DNA of 64,000 nucleotides, taken from Rhodomicrobium lacus (GTDB lineage Bacteria > Pseudomonadota > Alphaproteobacteria > Rhizobiales > Rhodomicrobiaceae). The position numbers were made by a program, and so were the translations under genes. The DNA lies in contig NZ_RZNF01000002.1 of the NCBI RefSeq assembly GCF_003992725.1, positions 124,001 through 188,000 on the forward strand, given 5' to 3'. Every line of letters starts with the position of its first letter. Within the stretch, counting starts at the first letter, position 1. This document shows, in pieces, positions 12,412-26,732 of the stretch. Under the pieces are notes generated by a model, which did no database searches, was not told where the DNA came from, and worked only from the letters and a program-made list of their open reading frames with translations.

Positions 12412-14701
12412 TCAGGCGCTTGCGAGGGACTCGTAAACGTCCTCCTCCTGCGCGTTGTGAAGGCGCACCAGAGACTCGAGGTTCTCGATGACCCGTTGCG
12501 CGTCGCGAATGAGATAACGGTCGGCGTCGCCCGATGACAGGCTCTCGGCAAGCCGCGCCAGAAGCCGAGCCAGGTGCAGGATTTCCCGATGCGCGCGGCT
12601 CATCGCCGACATGGCGGAAACATGCTCCGGAAATGTCGAGAGCTTCGGATAAAGCTCGCTTTCGTCGGCGCGTTCATGTCTGACGACGCTTTGCTGAACG
12701 ATCCGGTTGGCTTCCTCGATGAGCGTCGCGGCGCTGCGGCCCGTCGCATCGTCAAGCGCGTCGGCGATCTCGCGCAAGCGATCGAGGCTCTTTTCCAGCG
12801 CGCGGTGATCCGCTCCGAAAAACTCGGCGGAAAGCCCTACCGATGCAAGAGGCGGTCGCTTCCTGCCCGCGCCGAGTGCCCGAAGGGCATTAAGGATCAC
12901 CAGCACATCGATGGCTTCCTGAGAGATGGCGGCGGGAACGGGCGCCAGCCAGCCGAGCAGCGCCGCGATCATGGCGAGGCCGGAAAGGGCCATGCCGGCG
13001 ACGATGCTCTCGCGCGCAATCGCGACCGTGCGGCGCGCGATCTGCACGGCTTCCGCCACCCGGTCGAGGCGGTCCACGAGAATGACGACGTCTGCGGCCT
13101 CGGACGAGGCCGTCGCACCGCGCGCGCCCATGGCGATACCGACATCGGCCGCGGCCAGAGCCGGGGCATCGTTTATGCCGTCTCCCACCATGACCGTCGC
13201 GTGGGCCTTGCGCTCGGTCGCAACGGCATCGACCTTGTCCGCAGGCGAGCGTTCGGCCAGAACCGTGTCGAGATCGAGAGCGGCGGCTATGGTTTCGGCG
13301 GCATCCGCCCGGTCGCCCCGTGACCATCACGATGCGGCGGACGCCCGACGCCCGCAGGGTCTGGATCGCGCGCGGCGCTTCCCTGCGCAGTTCGTCGGCG
13401 AAAAGCAGTGCGCCGATTACCTGACCGTTCCGCGCCACGAACACACAAAGAGCCGAACGCCAGCTGGCTCGCCGCAAGGCCCGCGTCGCCCAGTCGGGCA
13501 GGCTTCGTCCGCCGAAAATCAGTTCGGCGGATCCGGCCCTGACACGTTGCCCTGCCAACATGCCTTCGAGTCCCGAACCGGCCTCTTCACGGACATTCGC
13601 GGGGAAATCGAGTGAAAGCCCTCGATTTCTCGCGGCGGCGACGATGGCCGAGGCGATGACGTGATGGGAGGCTTGTTCGAGACCGGCTGCGAGGCGCAGC
13701 ACTTCGTCGGCGTCCTCGCCCGGCGCCGTTTCTATGGCCGACAGGCGCGCTCCGCCGGCGGTCAGCGTGCCGGTCTTGTCGAACATCACGGTGTGGACGC
13801 GGCCGAGCGCTTCGAGCGGTGCGCCACCCTTGACGAGGATGCCATGCCGCGCGGCCCGGGAAACGCCCGCGATGAAGGCGACGGGAGCCGCAAGGATGAG
13901 AGGGCAGGGCGTAGAGGCGACGAGCACCGCCAAGGCGCGCATGGGATCGTCGGAAATCACCCACGCGATGGCGGCCAGCGCGAGCGTCGCCGGAAGCAGC
14001 AACAAGGCATAGCGGTCCGCCATGCGGATGAACGGCGCCTTCGCGGTCTGGGCGGCCGTCACCATCTTGACGATGCCCGCATAGGTGCTGTCGGCCGCCG
14101 AGGCGGTGGCCTGCATCTCGAAAGCTTCCCCCGCGTTGACGGCGCCGCTTCGCACCGGTTCGCCCGCCTTGCGTTCCACCGGGATGGGCTCGCCGGTCAG
14201 GGCCGATTCATCGAGCGTAGCCTTCGTGGCAAGGAGAGTTCCATCGGCCGGAACGATCTCGCCCGCGCGGACGAGGAGCCTGTCCCCGGTTCCGATCGCG
14301 TCGACCGACACGTCGTCGAGATGGTCGCCGACAAGCCGGTGAGCGAGGCGAGGGGCGCGGTCCAGCAGGTCTTTCAAATTGCGCTCGGCGCGAGTTACCG
14401 CGAAATCTTCGAGCGCGTTTCCGCCCGCATACATGACGGCCACGACGATCGCAGCGAGGTTCGCTCCAAGAAGGACCGCGGCCCCCATGCCGATGAAGGC
14501 CACGGCGTCGACGCCCATCCGGCCCGCAGCCAGATCGCGGGCGATGGATACGCCAAGCGCGAGGAGGACAGGCAGCGTGCCGAGAAGCCAGAATAACTGC
14601 GCAGTCTCCGGCCTTCGCAGGGAGTACGCCGCCAGCCCCGCCGCAAGCGCAACAAGCGAATAGAAGATCAGTCCGCGCCGTATGAACCGTTGACCGATCA
14701 T
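12412..14701 (-). pseudogene. P1B-5 (Nia-type) metal ATPase with C-terminal hemerythrin domain, frameshifted
   Basis: Read through one frameshift, this encodes a metal-exporting P-type ATPase of about 760 residues. The N-terminal frame (14701 to about 13316) has the TGE actuator motif, the membrane motif STPCPLILAAPVAF (TPC at 264-266) and DKTGT (Asp308). At 13315-13319 one extra base breaks the frame within the conserved TGD motif; removing it restores TGDRADAAETIAAALDLDT, then GDGINDAPA and two C-terminal helices. The last 130 or so residues form a hemerythrin-like domain (VRHERADESELYPKL, then LHNAQEEDVYESL). TPC plus hemerythrin marks the Nia subgroup, reported to handle Ni and Fe. The error sits in a GGGG run, so it may be a sequencing error, a recent mutation or recoding. 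Confidence 0.85.
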
Positions 14702-16223: not shown

Positions 16224-17138
16224 CTACCGGGGCGCGACAGTCACGTCGAGCCCGTAGTTGCCGAGAATGGCAGCGGCTCGCTCCGCCTTCGGCTCTATCC
16301 GCGAATGAACGGTATAGGTCTTTCCGAGCGCGGTATATTTCGACACCCCGAACTCATGATAAGGCAGGACTTCGATCTTCGGCAGGCGCACAGTCTGCAT
16401 GAAGCGGCCGAGCGCGTGGAGATTGTCGTCCGTATCGTTGTAGTCGGGAATGAGCGGCAGCCGGACGATGACCGGAAATCCCCGTTCGCCGAGGTGGCGC
16501 GCGTTTTCGAGGATGCGGGCGTTGCCTATGCCGGTGGCCTCCCGGTGGCGGGCGTCGTCCATGTGCTTGAGATCGAGCAGGATGAGATCGATCGCGGGAA
16601 GAAGCGTCTCGAAGCTCTCCCACGGCAGAAAGCCGGTCGTGTCGAGACAGGTGTGAAAGCCAAGCTCGTCATGCAGAACGCCGAGAAGCGCGCCGGTAAA
16701 TGCGGGCTGCGCCAGCGCCTCGCCGCCGCTCAGCGTGACGCCGCCGCCGCTTTGCATGAAGATCCGCCAATGCTGGCGCACCTCCGTCGATACCTCCTCC
16801 ACCGTCATGCGTCGGCCCGATAATTGCCGCGCATCCTGCGGACAGACCGAAACGCAAAGCCCGCACAGCTTGCAGGCCGTTTCGTCGCGACGCAGTTCAT
16901 TATCCGCGACGGCGAGCGCCCCGTTCGGGCATTCCTCGACACAGATGCCGCACAGCGTGCAGAGCTTTTCGAAATGGAGAAGTTCGGGCAGGTGCTTCTG
17001 CGACTCGGGATTGCTGCACCACCGGCACGTCAGCGGGCAGCCCTTGAGAAAGACGGTCGAGCGGACGCCGGGGCCGTCATGCACGCTGAAATGCTGGATG
17101 TCGAAGACGATGCCGCTCGGATTGTCCGCCGGTTTCAT
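16224..17138 (-). CDS. Glycyl radical enzyme activating protein (radical SAM)
   Basis: Uses S-adenosylmethionine and a 4Fe-4S cluster to put the radical on the partner enzyme's glycine. The radical-SAM motif is KGCPLTCRWCSN (CxxxCxxC), near residues 33-40 from the start at 17138 (MKPADNPSG), which is preferred to an ATG at 17186 because the extra residues are unlike the family. Two inserted ferredoxin-type clusters follow (CTLCGICVEECPNG and CKLCGLCVSVCPQD), as in activases of eliminase-type enzymes rather than PFL-AE. The SAM-binding GGEA (LSGGEALAQP) is intact. It follows the glycyl radical enzyme gene by 67 bp and is the last gene of the operon. Confidence 0.92.
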   Translation of the reverse strand: MKPADNPSGIVFDIQHFSVHDGPGVRSTVFLKGCPLTCRWCSNPESQKHLPELLHFEKLCTLCGICVEECPNGALAVADNELRRDETACKLCGLCVSVCPQDARQLSGRRMTVEEVSTEVRQHWRIFMQSGGGVTLSGGEALAQPAFTGALLGVLHDELGFHTCLDTTGFLPWESFETLLPAIDLILLDLKHMDDARHREATGIGNARILENARHLGERGFPVIVRLPLIPDYNDTDDNLHALGRFMQTVRLPKIEVLPYHEFGVSKYTALGKTYTVHSRIEPKAERAAAILGNYGLDVTVAPR

Positions 17139-17205
17139 GTGAGATGGTTCCTGGTCCCGGCATGCGGGGCACGGGCGAGCCGTCATGGGGCTCGCCCGCG
17201 GTTTG

Positions 17206-19692
17206 TCAGCAGTCGAAGGTCAGTTCCGTGCGCGCGATGATCTCGTCCTGCACGCCCTTGTGCAGGCGCGTGAAGTAGGCGCTGAAGCCCGCCACACGCA
17301 CTGTCAGCCCCTTGTAGGCGTCCGGGTTCGCCTGCGCCTTCCGCAGGGTGTCCGACGTCACCACGTTGAACTGAATGTGCGAACCGCCCGCATCCATGTA
17401 CGTCTTGATGAGCGACAGAAGTTTCCGCGCCCCGCCGATGCCGGAAAGGGCGCTCGGATGGAACTTCATGTTGAAGTGGTTCGAGCCGTACTTCACCGCA
17501 TCAACGGCTTGTGCCGCGGACTGGATCAGCGCGAGCGGTCCTTTCTTGTCGGTGCCGGGCGTCGCGGACACGCTGCCGTCCGTCAGCGGCCGCCCTTTCT
17601 GGCGTCCGCTCGGCAGCGCGCCGGTCTTCAGGCCGTAGTAGTTGTGGATCGAGAGCGAGTAGGCCTCGATGTTCGCGATGTGGTCGCCGAAGTAGCTGTA
17701 GCCGGCGGCGTGGAACGTCTTGAAGGCGTCGTCATAGACGCGGCGCACAAGCGCATCGATCTCGGGATCGCCGTTGCCGTGCTTCGGCGCGTTGAGGCAC
17801 AGCGTTTGAATGCGCTCATGGCCTTCGAAGTTTGCGTCGACGGCATCGAGCAGTTCGCCGAGTGTCACTCGCTGGGTGTCGAACACGAGATGCTTGATCG
17901 CGGCGAGCGAGTTCGCGGCATCGATGCCCGCATTGCTGATGACGAAATAGAGGTAGTAATCCACCCCGCCGTCGAACACGTGCTTGCCGCGTTCGAGGCA
18001 GCCGCCGTAAAGCGCGGAGCGGAAGGCGGGCGCGATCGTGTCGCCGAGCGCCTTGGTCGAGACGGAACCGAAAGCGCGCTGGACGTTGAAGAGGTGGTCC
18101 ACCTGGCGGAGCCACGCGGCATAGACGTCCTCGAAGCTCTTGAACGCGCGGGCGTCGCCGGTGCGGGCGCCGACGAAGAGGCCCGTGCCGGGGTCGACGC
18201 CGTCATGCAGCGCGAGTTCGATGCACTTCGCGAGGTTGAACGTCCCGCCTTCATGAATGAACGCAGTTCGCCCTTCGACGCCCGTGCCGACGCAGCTCAT
18301 GTTGATGCTGGCGCGCGCGTCCTCGATGGTGACGCCAACCTTGGCGTGCCGCGCGAGCGTCCGCTCGATGATGAGGCGCGTGTTCATCCATTGCGGCTGG
18401 CCGAGGCCCGTGCGTTCCAGTTCGACGGCCTTGAGCAGGAAGTCTTCCTTCAGGCCGTCGTGATAGAGGATGGTGATGGTCGGCTGGATGTTTTGCAGTT
18501 CGATTTGCGTGTCGAGGAGGACGTAATCGAGTTCAGTCGTGGCATCCTGTCCGGCCGCGTTGAAGCCGCCGAGATTGATGGTGTGCCCGGTGTGGCCCGA
18601 GTTGGTGCGCGCCGAGATGAGACCCTGATAATAGCCATATTCGAGGATCTTCACGAAAAGGCACTTGAACCATGCCTGCGCGTCTTCCCGCGTGAAGCCA
18701 TTTTGCAGCTTGTCGGCCTGGAACCACGGGTCGAGATACTGGCCGATGCGTCCGGGCGACGAGCCGCAGCCGCTCTGTTCGATCTGGTTGCCGAGGTGCA
18801 GGAACCACCAGAACTGAATGGCCTCGCGGAAGTTGCGCGGCGGATTTTCCGGCACGTGGCGGCACACTTCGGCGATTTGCAGAAGCTCCGCGCGGCGCAC
18901 GGCGTCGCCCGTCTCGCCCGCGAGCTTGTCGGCGAGATCGGCGTAGCGGTGCGCGAGATGGATCAGCGCGTTGAGCGAAATCAGCACTGCGCGATAGAAG
19001 TCGATCTTCGACGCGTTGTCCTGAGTAAGCGGAAGCGCCTTCAGCCGCCCTTCCGTTTCGCGGATGATGTCGCCAAGGCCGCGCCGGATGAAGGTTGCAT
19101 AGTCGAGGGTGCCCGAGCCGATGGTGTAGGGCGCGGTTTCGGTGATGAGGCCAGCGGCGACGCTGTCGCGCGGATCGAAGCCGTGAAGCTCACGCGAAAG
19201 CTCGCGGGCCCGCGCCTCGGCGGAGCGCGTCTGGAAGTATTTCGCGGTCTCGATGAGGGTCGCGCGTTCCTCATCGCTCAACTCGACCTCGCCGAGATGG
19301 CTCACCATCGGCTGATCGGCTTCGCGAAGGATCCACTCCGAGCCCCATTCGGGATAGGGGTAAACGCCGGCTGGCTTGCTCGTCACCGTGCCGACGAGCG
19401 GGTTGTCGTCGATGTAGAGCGTCTTCTTTTGCAGAACGCGCTCGAAGACGCGGGCGCGAAGAACCACGGTCGGCTCTTGCGCGTATTCCCGATACACGTC
19501 GAGGAGATGGGTCAGCCGTTCGGTGTCGATCTTCTGAGGGGCGTCGAGCAGAAATTCCTTTGCGCGCGAGGCGGCTTCGGCACAGCGCGCGGACTGGGCG
19601 GCGTTCGTCAGCTTTCCGTCTGCGCGGAACGGGCTGAGGCCGGGAATCGAAGATACGAGCAAGGCCTCCGGTGAGGCGTTCGGTACGGGCAT
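17206..19692 (-). CDS. Glycyl radical enzyme with atypical thiyl-cysteine motif
   Basis: Oxygen-sensitive radical enzyme of 828 residues, close in length to CutC, IslA and BssA. The C-terminal glycyl loop is RVAGFSAYFTRL (Gly802). The predicted thiyl cysteine is Cys467 in NMSCVGTGVEG, followed by FNLAKCIELALHDG, which fixes its place in the barrel. Known eliminases and decarboxylases of the superfamily have GCxE with an acid/base Glu two residues after Cys; here that position is Gly469 and the first Glu is at +6. PFL has paired Cys and BssA-type enzymes LCMSPG, so it is neither by motif. AAGGAG lies 8 bp before the ATG. The operon context (SsuABC-like importer, activase) points to anaerobic use of an imported small acid; the reaction is unknown. 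Confidence 0.92.
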   Translation of the reverse strand: MPVPNASPEALLVSSIPGLSPFRADGKLTNAAQSARCAEAASRAKEFLLDAPQKIDTERLTHLLDVYREYAQEPTVVLRARVFERVLQKKTLYIDDNPLVGTVTSKPAGVYPYPEWGSEWILREADQPMVSHLGEVELSDEERATLIETAKYFQTRSAEARARELSRELHGFDPRDSVAAGLITETAPYTIGSGTLDYATFIRRGLGDIIRETEGRLKALPLTQDNASKIDFYRAVLISLNALIHLAHRYADLADKLAGETGDAVRRAELLQIAEVCRHVPENPPRNFREAIQFWWFLHLGNQIEQSGCGSSPGRIGQYLDPWFQADKLQNGFTREDAQAWFKCLFVKILEYGYYQGLISARTNSGHTGHTINLGGFNAAGQDATTELDYVLLDTQIELQNIQPTITILYHDGLKEDFLLKAVELERTGLGQPQWMNTRLIIERTLARHAKVGVTIEDARASINMSCVGTGVEGRTAFIHEGGTFNLAKCIELALHDGVDPGTGLFVGARTGDARAFKSFEDVYAAWLRQVDHLFNVQRAFGSVSTKALGDTIAPAFRSALYGGCLERGKHVFDGGVDYYLYFVISNAGIDAANSLAAIKHLVFDTQRVTLGELLDAVDANFEGHERIQTLCLNAPKHGNGDPEIDALVRRVYDDAFKTFHAAGYSYFGDHIANIEAYSLSIHNYYGLKTGALPSGRQKGRPLTDGSVSATPGTDKKGPLALIQSAAQAVDAVKYGSNHFNMKFHPSALSGIGGARKLLSLIKTYMDAGGSHIQFNVVTSDTLRKAQANPDAYKGLTVRVAGFSAYFTRLHKGVQDEIIARTELTFDC

Positions 19693-19740
19693 GGAGCGGG
19701 CTCCTTCTGGGATGTGTAATGAAAAAAAGGCGAGCGGGCG

Positions 19741-20511
19741 TCAGGCCGCTTCCTGACCGGCTTCGAAGACATTCATTTCCGCGAGGACCTCGCTCTGCAG
19801 GGCGACGAATTCGCGGCTTGCGCGATTGCGCGGGTAATCGAGATCGACGGTGAGCCGGCGGGAGATGCGGCCGGGCTTGGCGCTCATCACGGCGATCTCG
19901 TTGCTGAGGAAGATCGCCTCGCCGACATCGTGCGTTACGAGGATCATGGTCGTCTTCTCGAAGCGCCAGATGCGGAGCAGTTCGTCCTGAAGGCGCAGCC
20001 TGGTGAGCGCGTCGAGAGCGCCGAGCGGCTCGTCGAGGAGGAGCACTTCCGGCTTGTTGACGAGTGCGCGGGCGATGGCCGCGCGTTGAGCCATGCCGCC
20101 CGACAACTGGTAGGGGTAGGCTTGCTCGAAGCCGTTCAGCCCGACGAGCGTGATATGCTCACGAACGATCTTCGCCTTTTCCTTCGACGATCCGGGCGCG
20201 TTTTCGAGGCTCAGCGCGACGTTCTGCTCAAGCGTCAACCAGGGCAGCAGCCGGTGATCCTGAAAGACGATGCCCCGCGCGAGGCTCGGCCCCGAGATCT
20301 GTTTTCCGTTGAGAAGAATGCTTCCCTCGTAATCCTGATCGAGACCCGCGATCAGGCGAAGCAGCGTCGACTTTCCGCAGCCGGAAGGGCCGACGATGCT
20401 GAGGAACTGTCCGGATTCGACGTTCAGTTCGATGTTCGAGAGGACGGTCAGGCGTCCGCCGTCGTGGCCCTGGTAGTGTTTGCCGACCGACCTGATTTGC
20501 AGTTTGGACAT
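19741..20511 (-). CDS. ABC transporter ATPase, SsuB/TauB-like
   Basis: Energises import of the presumed glycyl-radical substrate. The 256-residue subunit begins MSKLQIRSVGKHYQG. Walker A is GPSGCGKST, the Q-loop GIVFQDHRLLPWLTLEQNV, the signature LSGGMAQR, Walker B VLLLDEPLGALD and the switch VTHDVGEA. This set is typical of ATPases for nitrate, sulfonate and taurine. In-frame codons extend upstream without a stop, but they overlap the permease gene in another frame and are not conserved-looking. It lies 23 bp after the permease stop and 48 bp before the glycyl radical enzyme start. Confidence 0.93.
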   Translation of the reverse strand: MSKLQIRSVGKHYQGHDGGRLTVLSNIELNVESGQFLSIVGPSGCGKSTLLRLIAGLDQDYEGSILLNGKQISGPSLARGIVFQDHRLLPWLTLEQNVALSLENAPGSSKEKAKIVREHITLVGLNGFEQAYPYQLSGGMAQRAAIARALVNKPEVLLLDEPLGALDALTRLRLQDELLRIWRFEKTTMILVTHDVGEAIFLSNEIAVMSAKPGRISRRLTVDLDYPRNRASREFVALQSEVLAEMNVFEAGQEAA

Positions 20512-20534
20512 CTGTGTTTTCCGTTTGAGATCGA

Positions 20535-21368
20535 TCAGCCTTCGAAACCCTGCTTCCAGCGCAAAAGCCTGCGCTGCGCCAGATACATGATCCTGTCGAT
20601 GGTGAAGCCCACGAGGCCGATGATGATCATGCAGACGACGAGTTGGTCGGTGAGCAGCAGCCCTTGCGCGCGGAAAATCAGGAAGCCGAGCCCTTCGAGG
20701 CCGCTCAGTCCTTCCGCGATAACGACCATCGCCCATGCGAGACCGGCCGCGTAGCGCAGCGAAACCATGATCGAAGGGAAGGCGGAAGGAAGGACGACTT
20801 TCCGCACCATCTGCCAGCGCGTCAGCGTCAGGACGTTCGCCAGTTCGATATGGCTCTTTTCGACGTTCCTGATGCCCTGAAGGGTATTGAGAAACACAGG
20901 GAAGAAGACAGCCTTCGCGATGACGAGCACCTTCGCGGGCGCACCGATGCCGAGCCAAAGAACGATGAGCGGCAGCCAGGCGATGCCGGGAATATGGCGC
21001 AAGGTGTCGAATGTCGGCCCGAAAAACTGCTCGACGCGTTTTGAAAGCCCGGCGGCGATGCCTAGCACGATGGCTGCGGTCGCGCCGTAGACCAGCGCCT
21101 GCCCGACGATGGACACGCTCGAAATGAAGTCGTTCGCGAGGCGCTGCTTCGTGACCATCAGCCAGAAGGCTTCGGCCACCTTGACCGGCGCAGGCAGGAA
21201 GACGGCCTCCACCCATTGGTAGGTGGAAGCCGCCTGCCAGAGCGTGACGATGATGAGGGGCAAAAGAAGCCCGATGACGTTGATTTTCCCGAGAAACCTT
21301 GCCGCCCTTCGCGAGGGCGGCCGGGCTTCTGCCAGGTCCAGATAGCTGCTTGTGGTGCTCATTTCCAT
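20535..21368 (-). CDS. ABC transporter permease, SsuC/TauC-like
   Basis: Inner-membrane subunit of 277 residues with about six helices. The N-terminal segment NVIGLLLPLIIVTLWQAAS and the EAA-type loop near residues 170-195 (ELANVLTLTRWQMVRKVVLP) are those of BPD_transp_1 permeases for sulfonates, taurine, nitrate and related anions. The ATG at 21362 two codons later is an alternative start. The gene is 41 bp downstream of the solute-binding protein gene and on the same strand as all five operon members. Confidence 0.92.
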   Translation of the reverse strand: MEMSTTSSYLDLAEARPPSRRAARFLGKINVIGLLLPLIIVTLWQAASTYQWVEAVFLPAPVKVAEAFWLMVTKQRLANDFISSVSIVGQALVYGATAAIVLGIAAGLSKRVEQFFGPTFDTLRHIPGIAWLPLIVLWLGIGAPAKVLVIAKAVFFPVFLNTLQGIRNVEKSHIELANVLTLTRWQMVRKVVLPSAFPSIMVSLRYAAGLAWAMVVIAEGLSGLEGLGFLIFRAQGLLLTDQLVVCMIIIGLVGFTIDRIMYLAQRRLLRWKQGFEG

Positions 21369-21409
21369 CCGCCCAACGGGCGCCTCGCTCTGGAGGCGCC
21401 CGAAATTAA

Positions 21410-22492
21410 CTAGTTGTAGATGGAGTATTCGCCGCCGACGAAGAACCGCCCGTCGATGAAGGTGTCGACCTGCTCATCGGTCAGCCTGCGCTCGTTCAGG
21501 ATGTCGTCGCCGTTGGCCACATACCATTCCTGGAAGGTCTTGATGGCGAGGCGAGCCTTGTCCGCGCGCGGCTCACCTGCCATGAATTCCCACTCGCCGG
21601 GGTGCGTAATCTGGAAGCGGGCGACCTCAGCCGGAACGCGTGTTTCGCGGGCCACGATTTCAGTGGCTTCCTCGACATGGTCGAGCGCCCATTCGCGGGT
21701 GCGTTCGCGCGCGATCAGAAACGCTTTCACCACCTCGGGGTATTTGTTCACGAAGTCGCGCCGCGCGAAGTAGGTGACGCGGCCGGCGTGATTCACGTAG
21801 ATGCCGTCATCAGGGGAGCGGCTCACGACCTTGAATTTGCCGGAAAGCCACGGGCCGGTGAAGGCGCTGGCGGCAAGATGCGCGGTCGTGGCGTCGGTCG
21901 CGCCGGAAAGAACGGCGGAAATCGCAACGGCCGAGTTGTCGATGGATTCGTAACGCACGCGCCCCTGCTTCAGGCGTGAATCGAACGGCAGGCCCGCCTG
22001 GGTCAACTGCTCGAAAGGAGACGACCAGTAGCAACTGATGCGGCTGGAACCGAATTTCTTGCCGTCGAGATCCTTGACGGTCTTGATCGCGTCGTTATCG
22101 GCCCGTGCCAGGATCGGCGCGCGATAGCGGTTCGAGGGCTCGGATGCCCAGATGATGACGCCGTCGAGGCCGTTGGCGCGGTGAATGGTCGCCGGATAGA
22201 TCATGCGCTGCGCGATGGCGATAGCGCCGCCACCGACCGCGGCGGCTTCAGCGCCGAGAAGATCGGCGGCACCGCCCGCAATGAGGTTGATCTTCGTCGT
22301 CCCGATCTTGTCGAACTCTTCTTTGAAGAAACCCTTTTCCCGCGCAATCACGGTCCATTGCGTCAGCTGCAGATTAATTGAAGGCAGAACATCGGCGCGC
22401 GCCACAGGAGCGCTCACCCCGACCATCATCGACACTGCTGCTACACAAGATGCAATGCGCACCCACCGTCTGATCCTGCTATCCACGGTCAT
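21410..22492 (-). CDS. ABC transporter substrate-binding protein, NMT1/SsuA-like
   Basis: Periplasmic receptor that would set the importer's specificity. From the start at 22492 (MTVDSRIRRWVRIASCVAAV) it has 360 residues with a signal peptide ending near APVARAD. An in-frame ATG at 22591 would add 33 residues that do not look like signal sequence. The mature protein has the NMT1 fold pattern (INLQLTQWTVIAREKGFFKE near the N-terminus, then YSLDGKKF-like VKDLDGKKFGSSRIS). Family members bind sulfonates, nitrate, pyrimidines or aromatic acids, so the ligand cannot be read off. It is the first gene of the glycyl-radical operon. Confidence 0.9.
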   Translation of the reverse strand: MTVDSRIRRWVRIASCVAAVSMMVGVSAPVARADVLPSINLQLTQWTVIAREKGFFKEEFDKIGTTKINLIAGGAADLLGAEAAAVGGGAIAIAQRMIYPATIHRANGLDGVIIWASEPSNRYRAPILARADNDAIKTVKDLDGKKFGSSRISCYWSSPFEQLTQAGLPFDSRLKQGRVRYESIDNSAVAISAVLSGATDATTAHLAASAFTGPWLSGKFKVVSRSPDDGIYVNHAGRVTYFARRDFVNKYPEVVKAFLIARERTREWALDHVEEATEIVARETRVPAEVARFQITHPGEWEFMAGEPRADKARLAIKTFQEWYVANGDDILNERRLTDEQVDTFIDGRFFVGGEYSIYN

Positions 22493-25397: not shown

Positions 25398-26546
25398 CTA
25401 TTCCGCGCGCGCCTGCCCGAGCGCTTCCGAAAGGTCTTCGTAAAGATCGTCGACCGCTTCGAGGCCCACCGAAAGGCGCAAAAGATCTTCGGGGACGGGC
25501 GAGCGCGGCCCTTCGATGCTGGCGCGATGCTCGATCAGGCTTTCGACGCCGCCAAGCGAGGTTGCACGCTTCCAGATGGATACGCGTGCAGCCGTGGCGA
25601 TAGCGGCCCGCTCGCCCCCACGCACCCGGATGGAGAGCATTCCGCCAAAGCCGCCCTGCATCTGGCGGCTGGCGAGCTGGTGGCCTTTGAAGCCCGGCAG
25701 ACCGGGATAAAGTACTTCAGCAACCGCTGGATGGGCGGAAAGGCGTTCCGCCAGCGCCTGCGCCGAAGCGCATTGCCAGCGAACGCGCGCGAACAGCGTA
25801 CGCATGCCGCGCTGAAGAAGCCACGCCTCCAATGTGCCGGGCACGCCGCCGTTCTGACTTTGAACCGTCTTGATGTTCGCCCAGAACTCATCCTGCCGCG
25901 CAGTCGTAACCGTGCCGATGACCGCATCCGAATGGCCGTTGAGATACTTGGTGGCGGAGTGCATCACGATGTCGGCGCCGAGCGAGAGCGGCCGCGTGAG
26001 AACCGGCGTGGCGACGGTGGAGTCGACTGCGAGGCGCGCGCCCGCCGCATGTGCGATCTCGGCTGCCGCCGCGATGTCGTACACGGTCCACAGCGGATTC
26101 GCCGGCGTTTCGAGCCAGACGAGCTTCGTGCGGCCCGGAGCGATTGCGGCTTTCAGCGCGTCGATGTCGCCCGCATCGACGAAGTCCACCACAAGCCCCC
26201 AGCGTGACGCAAAGCCTTCGAGCCATGCCCGCAGCGCCCAGTACATCACGCGCGGAACGACGACATGATCGCCGGGCGTAAGCGCCAGAAACACGGCGTT
26301 CGCCGCCGCCATGCCCGAGCCGAACAGCGCCGTTTCGGCGCCGCCTTCCAGCGCGGTCAGCGTCTCTGCCGCCGTGTCGAACGTGGCGTTCTGTGCGCGG
26401 GAGTAGACGCGTCCGCGCCGATAGAGATTGTCGGGATCGCGGATATAGGTGGTCGTCGGATAGAGCGGGGGAATGAGTGCCCCCGTGGCTTCGTCTTCCC
26501 GGCCAAGCGCGCTGGCCGCGACGGTTTCGGGACGTTTCTTTGTCAT
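25398..26546 (-). CDS. PLP-dependent Cys/Met-metabolism enzyme (cystathionine lyase/synthase-like)
   Basis: Cytosolic enzyme of 382 residues from the start MTKKRPETVAASALG at 26546; in-frame ATGs at 26582 and 26699 give a poorly conserved extension. It has the family's YSRAQNATFDTAAETLTALEG segment, the PLP phosphate-binding GSGMAAANA, and the Schiff-base lysine in SATKYLNGHSD, with DSTVATP upstream. The C-terminal SLGGVESLIEHRAS motif is conserved in cystathionine gamma-synthase, beta-lyase and gamma-lyase. The exact reaction cannot be chosen between these, though a lyase (MetC-like) is common for this length. It is convergent with the OsmC gene. Confidence 0.87.
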   Translation of the reverse strand: MTKKRPETVAASALGREDEATGALIPPLYPTTTYIRDPDNLYRRGRVYSRAQNATFDTAAETLTALEGGAETALFGSGMAAANAVFLALTPGDHVVVPRVMYWALRAWLEGFASRWGLVVDFVDAGDIDALKAAIAPGRTKLVWLETPANPLWTVYDIAAAAEIAHAAGARLAVDSTVATPVLTRPLSLGADIVMHSATKYLNGHSDAVIGTVTTARQDEFWANIKTVQSQNGGVPGTLEAWLLQRGMRTLFARVRWQCASAQALAERLSAHPAVAEVLYPGLPGFKGHQLASRQMQGGFGGMLSIRVRGGERAAIATAARVSIWKRATSLGGVESLIEHRASIEGPRSPVPEDLLRLSVGLEAVDDLYEDLSEALGQARAE

Positions 26547-26732
26547 GTCGGGTTTTGTCCGGTTGGATGGTCTCCTGAGCATCGTCCCATATTTGAGCGC
26601 GTTGTGGCGCTTCGGATCTTGTCGAAACCCTATCACCTCCCCTTGATTCCCGAACGCGATTTCATCCGAAATCTCGTGCAGAGGATAACTCAAGGGCACC
26701 CCCTCGCCCTCGCGGCGAAATCGCAGGGTTCG

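Follow-up and report, generated by a model that had tools for sequence, protein, structure and literature searches.

Introduction

A 64,000-nucleotide stretch of the Rhodomicrobium lacus genome (contig NZ_RZNF01000002.1, positions 124,001 to 188,000; hereafter the window) encodes a glycyl radical enzyme (GRE) with an unusual cysteine loop side by side with an ABC importer, and the question raised by this locus is which anion enters the cell and what the enzyme does with it. The best-supported step of the answer proposed here is the import of an organosulfur anion, which we consider probable; that the C–S bond of this anion is then broken without oxygen by the GRE follows from organosulfur import by parsimony, and its chances are about even. 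The observations on which this proposal builds are the gene order, the fold family of the enzyme, its radical residues, the clade to which it belongs, its linkage to the importer and the sulfur context of importer homologues. Published work is cited by PubMed Central number. No paper on this enzyme was found in open-licence PubMed Central among the titles and abstract starts of the matches listed.

Organization of the locus

Five minus-strand genes encode, in this order, binding protein, permease, ATPase, GRE and activase, as read from the open reading frames (ORFs) and their Pfam and NCBIfam domains, and the layout described in a first-pass annotation of the window is thereby confirmed. These genes and the codons discussed below are the following.

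21410-22492, minus strand: NMT1/SsuA-like periplasmic binding protein, 360 amino acids (PF09084, 36.8 bits, cut-off 20.5; TIGR01728, 74.7 bits, cut-off 163.5)
20535-21368, minus strand: ABC permease, 277 amino acids (PF00528, 89.8 bits)
19741-20511, minus strand: ABC ATPase (PF00005, 118.3 bits; ATG at 20511 chosen by eye)
17206-19692, minus strand: GRE, 828 amino acids, clade C1 (PFL-like PF02901, 496.5 bits; Gly_radical PF01228, 93.3 bits)
16224-17186, minus strand: GRE activase with radical SAM and 4Fe-4S domains, 320 amino acids (TIGR02494, 327.1 bits, cut-off 174.35)
18292-18294, minus strand: codon of Cys467, the predicted thiyl residue, in NMSCVGTG (computed from the ORF start at 19692)
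17287-17289, minus strand: codon of Gly802, the predicted glycyl radical site, in RVAGFSAYF (computed from the ORF start)
17476-17478, minus strand: codon of His739 in SNHFNMK, part of the Asn-His pair of the CxE-less clade

With the starts as chosen, the gaps from binding protein to activase measure 41, 23, 48 and 19 bp; the ATPase ORF as listed begins farther upstream, within the permease gene, and the ATG at 20511 was used instead. The importer components match NMT1, BPD_transp_1 and ABC_tran in Pfam, and the start of the binding protein, whose predicted structure is poor (pLDDT 48), resembles, by eye, a signal peptide. Because no promoter-like site was found and terminator-like sites are no more frequent than in shuffled sequence, the operon structure rests on gene order. 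The 3.88 Mb genome holds a single Gly_radical match, and the nearest named locus, judged by the GRE, is that of Rhodomicrobium udaipurense (95% identity).

A glycyl radical enzyme without the CxE glutamate

A PFL-like barrel, a C-terminal Gly_radical domain, the cysteine and glycine loops and the adjoining activase place the enzyme in the GRE superfamily. Structure modelling, as advised in the first-pass annotation, yielded a standard GRE fold (pLDDT 89.9) with a Z score of ~45 to glycerol and propanediol dehydratases, and its closest matches among solved structures, at ~30% identity, are those of glycerol dehydratase, HypD and propanediol dehydratases. Cys467 stands in INMSCVGTGVEG and Gly802 in RVAGFSAYF, and both are invariant across the 33 sequences of alignment A1, from which locus L011 was removed; the glycyl loop is thus normal, as had been claimed. 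The residue two positions after the predicted thiyl Cys467 is indeed glycine (Gly469), whereas the CutC, HypD and HpsG rows have glutamate there, and the CxE loop described as a conserved feature of GRE eliminases (PMC8473560) is replaced by C467-V468-G469. The glutamate at Cys+6 (in VEG) is judged to be no substitute catalytic residue, since it is alanine in 16 of the 17 other C1 rows; the near copy L002 is the row that also has glutamate. Active-site numbering transferred from CutC by fixed offsets failed at four of nine positions (Y208, D216, F677 and G821), which were dropped; the Cys and Glu columns are those relied on.

The enzyme fits no CHARACTERISED family and scores below every curated NCBIfam cut-off matched, its best match being TIGR01774 (489.6 bits, cut-off 678.2). 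Scores fall short for HpsG (NF048011, 424.7 bits) and HpfG (NF048009, 398.4 bits; both cut-offs 1000), for HypD (NF043068, 467.8 bits against a cut-off of 1100, which 3 of 10 reference rows pass), for CutC (TIGR04394, 380.0 bits, cut-off 1050), for the arylacetate decarboxylases HPAD (NF033715, 405.0 bits, cut-off 1150) and IAD (NF033718, 464.3 bits, cut-off 1100), and for pyruvate formate-lyase (TIGR01255, 90.9 bits, cut-off 994.2). A CMSPG cysteine loop is the motif of X-succinate synthases. Both this benzylsuccinate-type motif and the paired cysteines of pyruvate formate-lyase are missing, as first annotated: the cysteine in SCV is single, the loop reads SCVGTG, and the one CMSPG row in the tree, L102, branches outside the clade of the window enzyme.

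One scan of a genome collection gave 44 GRE loci, of which 17 carry the SCVGTG loop (64-95% identity); adding the window and, from the Desulfovibrio-type order (the order of the Solidesulfovibrio genome G394), L048/L077 and L051/L078 gives the 20 distinct loci of clade C1. Records L047, L049, L050, L052 and L053 duplicate L004, L005, L006, L013 and L014 and were not counted, and gene calls in the relatives are codon-score picks, with many neighbours named by eye and possibly misnamed. In a maximum-likelihood tree of 57 rows, which left out L002 as a near copy and L009, L011 and L016 as short or partial, the 16 C1 rows group with support of 100/100; the phylogeny recommended at the outset assigns the enzyme to a fully supported clade of its own. 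C1 comprises alphaproteobacteria, Desulfovibrionales and termite-gut Rhodocyclales. Its sister, C2, consists of 15 Desulfovibrionales rows (100/98), and both lie within a larger CxE-less clade of 38 rows (100/100) that also takes in Formimonas L041 and L018-L021. Ten relatives were scored as well (two C1, three C2 and five outer rows), and not one passed a curated cut-off. In the Desulfovibrio-type order, 50 of the 297 genomes sampled gave matches to close clade members (E <= 1e-150), and a plasmid search with the GRE gave identities of at most 32.4% among the best 12 of 140 records.

Within the 38 clade rows the Cys+2 position is occupied by Gly (21), Ser (11), Gln (5) or Ala (1), never by Glu. 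Since Glu is also missing there in 5 of the 19 other GRE rows (U_L029, U_L036, CutClike_L098, CMSPG L102 and PflB), its loss alone is taken not to define the clade, and of the earlier description of the enzyme as atypical the part that stands is its own clade and its failure to pass any curated GRE cut-off, not the uniqueness of the missing glutamate. The Asn738-His739 pair (NHxNxK) is present in 38 of 38 clade rows, with neither residue found in any of the 19 others. His367, Arg558, Asn738 and His739 are all kept in 16/16 C1 rows and absent from the 19 others, the first two being retained in 33 of the 38 clade rows.

Two GRE homologues, L036 (2362-4728) and L040, have a radical loop reading RVATYSAYF, with Thr replacing Gly, for which the aminoacyl radical enzymes of PMC11528403 offer a comparison. 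Loci L018 and L020 hold distant CxE-less GREs of Dehalococcoidia and a deltaproteobacterium, and L020 contains three of them, one ending at the contig edge.

Linkage of the importer to the enzyme

By curated cut-offs the importer, first annotated as SsuABC-like, is no SsuABC member (SsuA_fam 74.7 bits, cut-off 163.5; SsuB 211.5 bits, cut-off 395; SsuC 164.6 bits, cut-off 347). Its cassette of binding protein, permease and ATPase, or the part of it that fits on the contig, stands beside the C1 enzyme in 12 of 20 loci (the window, L002, L003, L004, L005, L007, L009, L010, L011, L012, L015 and L037), on the same strand or divergently. The cassette pieces are 52-76% identical to those of the window (92-98% in the near copy L002), the binding proteins of ten other loci being 58-73% identical to its own, and all C1 loci but L011, whose contig stops after the enzyme, also have an activase gene (19 of 20). 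As the arrangement recurs in other lineages with binding proteins 58-76% identical to that of the window, the association of GRE and importer is taken to be more than chance.

The two components also share a sporadic distribution. In the window's class the binding protein occurs in 1 of 367 genomes, that of the window (E <= 1e-60), and the GRE in 1 of 385. At the same threshold the binding protein occurs in four of the 297 genomes of the Desulfovibrio-type order, each time within ~2 kb of a C1 or C2 enzyme: beside C1 in G386, between C1 and C2 in G387, and beside C2 in G609 (L083) and G654 (L122). The order of G389, an Accumulibacter metagenome-assembled genome, has the GRE in 1 of 230 genomes and the binding protein in 3 of 230, and the family of G741 has the binding protein in 4 of 170. 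A plasmid search with the binding protein returned one partial 32% match. The earlier statement that the importer is dedicated to the enzyme survives in the form that it looks dedicated, given the sporadic distribution that it shares with C1 and C2 enzymes.

Sulfur genes around the importer cassette

Four genomes, by inference betaproteobacteria (G741, G896, G989 and G942; loci L120, L121, L126 and L127), carry the cassette with no GRE by tblastn in the 20 kb read, and a genome-wide GRE search (E <= 1e-150) covered G741 and G896 of the four. All four cassettes are accompanied, 0.25-9 kb away, by homologues of flavin organosulfur monooxygenases of the NtaA/DmoA or SfnB/DszC groups. In L120 an NtaA/DmoA homologue (TIGR03860, 589 bits, cut-off 279.7) lies 2.2 kb from the binding-protein gene, with a rhodanese, a family 2A encapsulin (535.5 bits, cut-off 380) and a cysteine desulfurase of encapsulin-cargo type (554.5 bits, under the cut-off of 800) at 3.8-6.3 kb. 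In L121 a divergent gene only 0.25 kb from the binding-protein gene encodes an SfnB/DszC homologue (by tblastn only), 42% identical to that of L012. Locus L126 has two SfnB/DszC homologues at 5.3 and 6.6 kb (one was scored, 270.9 bits, cut-off 430.9), MsuE at 8.2 kb (249.5 bits, cut-off 212.5) and an NtaA/DmoA homologue, incomplete at the end of the stretch, at 9.2 kb, while L127 has TauE at 4.1 kb, an SfnB-type homologue at 7.0 kb (379.6 bits, cut-off 430.9) and NtaA/DmoA at 8.3 kb (596 bits, TIGR03860 cut-off 279.7). A gene of this kind also occurs together with a C1 GRE: in L012 a DszC/SfnB-type gene begins 9 bp past the ATPase stop codon (308.3 and 260.5 bits, under both cut-offs).

Dimethyl sulfide, sulfone, sulfinate and methanesulfonate are oxidized by flavin monooxygenases belonging to these two fold groups, with MsuE feeding them (PMC13352529). 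Growth of R. capsulatus on isethionate induces ntaA, SsuCAB, sufS2 and a rhodanese gene, and its isethionate sulfur is obtained through SsuCAB and an oxygen-independent enzyme (PMC11423573). The genome of the window encodes a nitrite/sulfite reductase-family protein and a family 2A encapsulin. Sulfonates had been named as one candidate substrate class from the importer family; the monooxygenases at 4/4 GRE-less cassette loci lend support to a sulfonate or other organosulfur anion as the putative substrate.

Other genes were noted around the cassette and the GRE. A MauG/MbnH-like di-haem enzyme adjoins the cassette in L120 and L121, and a TPR protein follows the cassette ATPase in the same two loci and, by eye, in L126. 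Pyridoxal-phosphate enzymes of Cys/Met metabolism are encoded near the GRE in the window (25398-26699, minus strand), in L010 (13493-14845) and in L004 (13454-15613); those of the window and L010 are 48% identical, and in L004 an O-acetylhomoserine sulfhydrylase stands behind a QueG-like 4Fe-4S domain in one frame, a 43% identical homologue of the domain being present in L003.

Proposed pathway

Substrate class, C–S cleavage, the role of His739 and the fate of the product are what we infer from these observations, as follows. The ABC importer would take up a small organosulfur anion, either a sulfonate or a related sulfone, sulfinate or thioether acid. Activase would generate a radical on Gly802, which would be transferred to Cys467, and the Cys467 thiyl would abstract a hydrogen atom from the carbon neighbouring the C–S carbon; the beta C–S bond would then break, yielding a carbon product that requires no further dedicated enzyme and, as the sulfur product, sulfite or another reduced sulfur species. 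His739 is the candidate acid/base in place of the CxE glutamate and, because this glutamate is missing, the substrate need not be an isethionate-like 2-hydroxy compound. Rhodomicrobium would assimilate the sulfur, and sulfate reducers could respire it. As for specific substrates, sulfosuccinate and taurine were weighed, and the data select neither.

On the best reading of the sequences, enzyme and importer would together be an oxygen-independent counterpart of the flavin monooxygenase route. Going further, and only tentatively, the enzyme may represent a third kind of glycyl-radical C–S-cleaving enzyme, in which a conserved histidine (NHxNxK) would replace the catalytic glutamate and which would act on organosulfur anions without a neighbouring hydroxyl group, as the O2-free counterpart of flavin monooxygenases behind the same importer; many Desulfovibrionales would use enzymes of its sister clade for related chemistry, alongside a HesB-like protein that in some of them is an apparent selenoprotein. 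If so, radical C–S cleavage would reach beyond hydroxysulfonates, the CxE-less GRE branch would acquire a function, and anaerobic supply of sulfur or of electron acceptors from organosulfur compounds in phototrophs, gut symbionts and sulfate reducers would be explained. The apparent swap of GRE and flavin monooxygenase behind one importer makes the substrate directly testable.

Several observations weigh against this proposal. The binding protein finds only weak matches in the PDB (SsuA, E = 0.002). Of five SfnB/DszC homologues three were scored, none reaching the equivalog cut-off; both monooxygenase groups also include enzymes for other substrates; the genes lie 5-9 kb from the binding-protein gene in L126 and L127; and of the 12 complete cassette loci that have a C1 or C2 enzyme, just one contains a flavin sulfur monooxygenase. 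That these monooxygenases occur, by tblastn over 129 records (1.41 Mb; L117 among them is part of L121), at cassette loci only speaks for the proposal, but the control is weak, most of the records coming from other lineages. The PF01077 match in the genome of the window cannot separate sulfite from nitrite reductase. The sulfonate site of IslA consists of Arg189, Gln193 and Arg678 (PMC8473560), and HpsG rows, through which this site was mapped in place of an IslA sequence, show R-S-S-I-Q and R-Y-V-P-F with corresponding spacing; C1 has a gap in the column of the first Arg, Ala or Ser in that of Gln, and, in 16/16 rows, Glu676 in that of Arg678. IslA-type sulfonate residues thus appear to be absent from C1, and a sulfonate substrate, if such it is, would be held otherwise than in IslA. 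The main threat comes from the TRAP and DASS transporters, often carboxylate carriers, at four C1 loci, and from PrpR-type regulators, which point to carboxylates in some loci.

Alternative explanations

These last genes are the core of the strongest competing explanation, namely that a sulfur-free organic anion such as a dicarboxylate is imported and that the GRE eliminates, decarboxylates or rearranges it for central metabolism. Behind the activase gene lies a DASS symporter gene in L013, truncated there by the end of the contig, and in L078 (456.4 bits, cut-off 198.6), and TRAP genes lie behind it in L006 and L077; PrpR-type sigma-54 regulators are found near the enzyme in L006 (by Pfam) and in L013, L014, L077 and L078 (by homology); and fumarase genes occur 5-8 kb from the enzyme in L013 and L014, together with other dicarboxylate-type genes. 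For a TRAP binding protein from one C1 locus, the nearest solved structures form a large and heterogeneous group and give no indication of the ligand. Since the fumarase context is confined to two loci and was not seen in L078, whose enzyme is nearest that of L013 in the tree, the dicarboxylate pathway is ranked second; importer homologues without this enzyme, moreover, occur together with organosulfur genes, and we regard the pathway as rather unlikely.

It is improbable that the GRE makes or splits C–C bonds in the manner of alkyl- and benzylsuccinate synthases, which also lack the CxE glutamate. The next branch beyond the CxE-less clade is the CMSPG enzyme L102 (support 96/97), and distant clade members stand, by eye, beside acyl-CoA dehydrogenases (L020) or a CaiB-type CoA transferase (L018). 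The branch of L102 is, however, long and its placement unsure, its identity as an X-succinate synthase comes from the motif alone, C1 itself has no CMSPG motif, and no recurrent set of beta-oxidation genes was seen beside C1 in the loci read.

Slightly more improbable still is that importer and enzyme are neighbours with unrelated substrates. The cassette was not seen at 8 of the 20 C1 loci, four having the other transporters named above and four (L008, L014, L016 and L017) none in the available stretch, which in three of them begins within 0.3 kb of the enzyme; in addition, the cassette occurs with no GRE seen nearby in four genomes and beside C2 only in two more. Against this, different lineages show the linkage, with gene order and strand varying between them, and those genomes of the Desulfovibrio-type order that have the cassette but lack a C1 enzyme carry it next to one of C2 (L083 and L122). 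Finally, a PFL-like or eliminase relative with lost activity or a trivial role, suggested by the absent catalytic glutamate and by related Desulfovibrio operons being termed pyruvate formate-lyase (PMC4641369; relation by layout alone), is very improbable, as 16/16 C1 tree rows retain the two radical residues as well as the Asn-His pair, no stop interrupts these rows and activase is present in 19/20 loci.

The sister clade and its HesB-like protein

For the clade C2 relatives of the proposed C–S-cleaving enzyme, flanking genes were read at 19 places (L079-L096 and L122), several of them from close relatives, so that the counts are not independent; L094 and L096, outside the tree, were assigned to C2 by 46-47% identity and layout. 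A TauE protein of the sulfite-exporter family, which counts in favour of the organosulfur reading, is encoded at most 5 kb from the enzyme in 11 of 19, and the same 11 places have an amino-acid-type permease and a sigma-54 regulator (at least 61% identity). A small HesB/ErpA-like protein was detected by tblastn in 18 of 19 places and by eye in L092. In L081 (12560-12910) and L082 (12750-13150) its gene has an in-frame TGA at a conserved Cys, the frame being otherwise open, while at the other loci read that position is Cys; the protein of L081 and L082 thus looks like a selenoprotein. Of the 20 C1 loci, 14 encode a similar small protein, placed between the GRE and the activase; the L016 copy is interrupted, and the window is not among the 14. 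The D. vulgaris operon DVU2272-2269, called pyruvate formate-lyase and flanked by a divergent sigma-54 regulator (PMC4641369), looks by its layout like a member of C2.

In L085 (9058-19785) a true CutC (1352.5 bits, cut-off 1050) is encoded ~6 kb from the C2 GRE, and TauE and an amino-acid-type permease separate the two. A DUF4125 protein (237.8 bits) is encoded in L087 (13193-13819), and similar ones were seen by eye near the C2 GREs of L085, L090, L094 and L095. In the window itself, at 12412-14701 on the minus strand, a metal P-type ATPase is apparently split over two frames (ORFs 12890-14701 and 12412-13191; by eye), which seems to be a frameshift or a sequencing error.

Comparison with known systems

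The nearest characterized sequences and folds to the window enzyme are those of HypD and the glycerol and propanediol dehydratases; HypD rows have CxE, whereas the window enzyme lacks it and belongs to a separate supported clade. X-succinate synthases (BssA and MasD) resemble it in having no Glu at Cys+2 (L102 row) and through the possible sister position of L102, but their structural Z scores are 38.5-40.4, compared with 45 for the dehydratases. IslA/IseG and HpsG, known for anaerobic C–S cleavage in Desulfovibrio-type bacteria (PMC6453916, PMC12890257), share with the window the combination of GRE and activase, often with a dedicated anion transporter. They differ in using CxE (PMC8473560; HpsG rows) where the window enzyme has CVG, and the latter is 27-28% identical to their structures and appears to lack Arg and Gln at the mapped sulfonate positions of IslA.

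The IsrBHDK and SsuCAB system of R. capsulatus is likewise that of a purple bacterium in which an SsuABC-type importer and O2-independent C–S cleavage provide sulfur (PMC11423573), but its isethionate reductase IsrBHDK is nitrogenase-like and the window enzyme is a GRE. Two-component flavin organosulfur monooxygenases (SsuD/MsuD, SfnG, DmoA and DszC) have homologues near the same importer cassette. These monooxygenases require oxygen, by which a GRE is expected to be destroyed.

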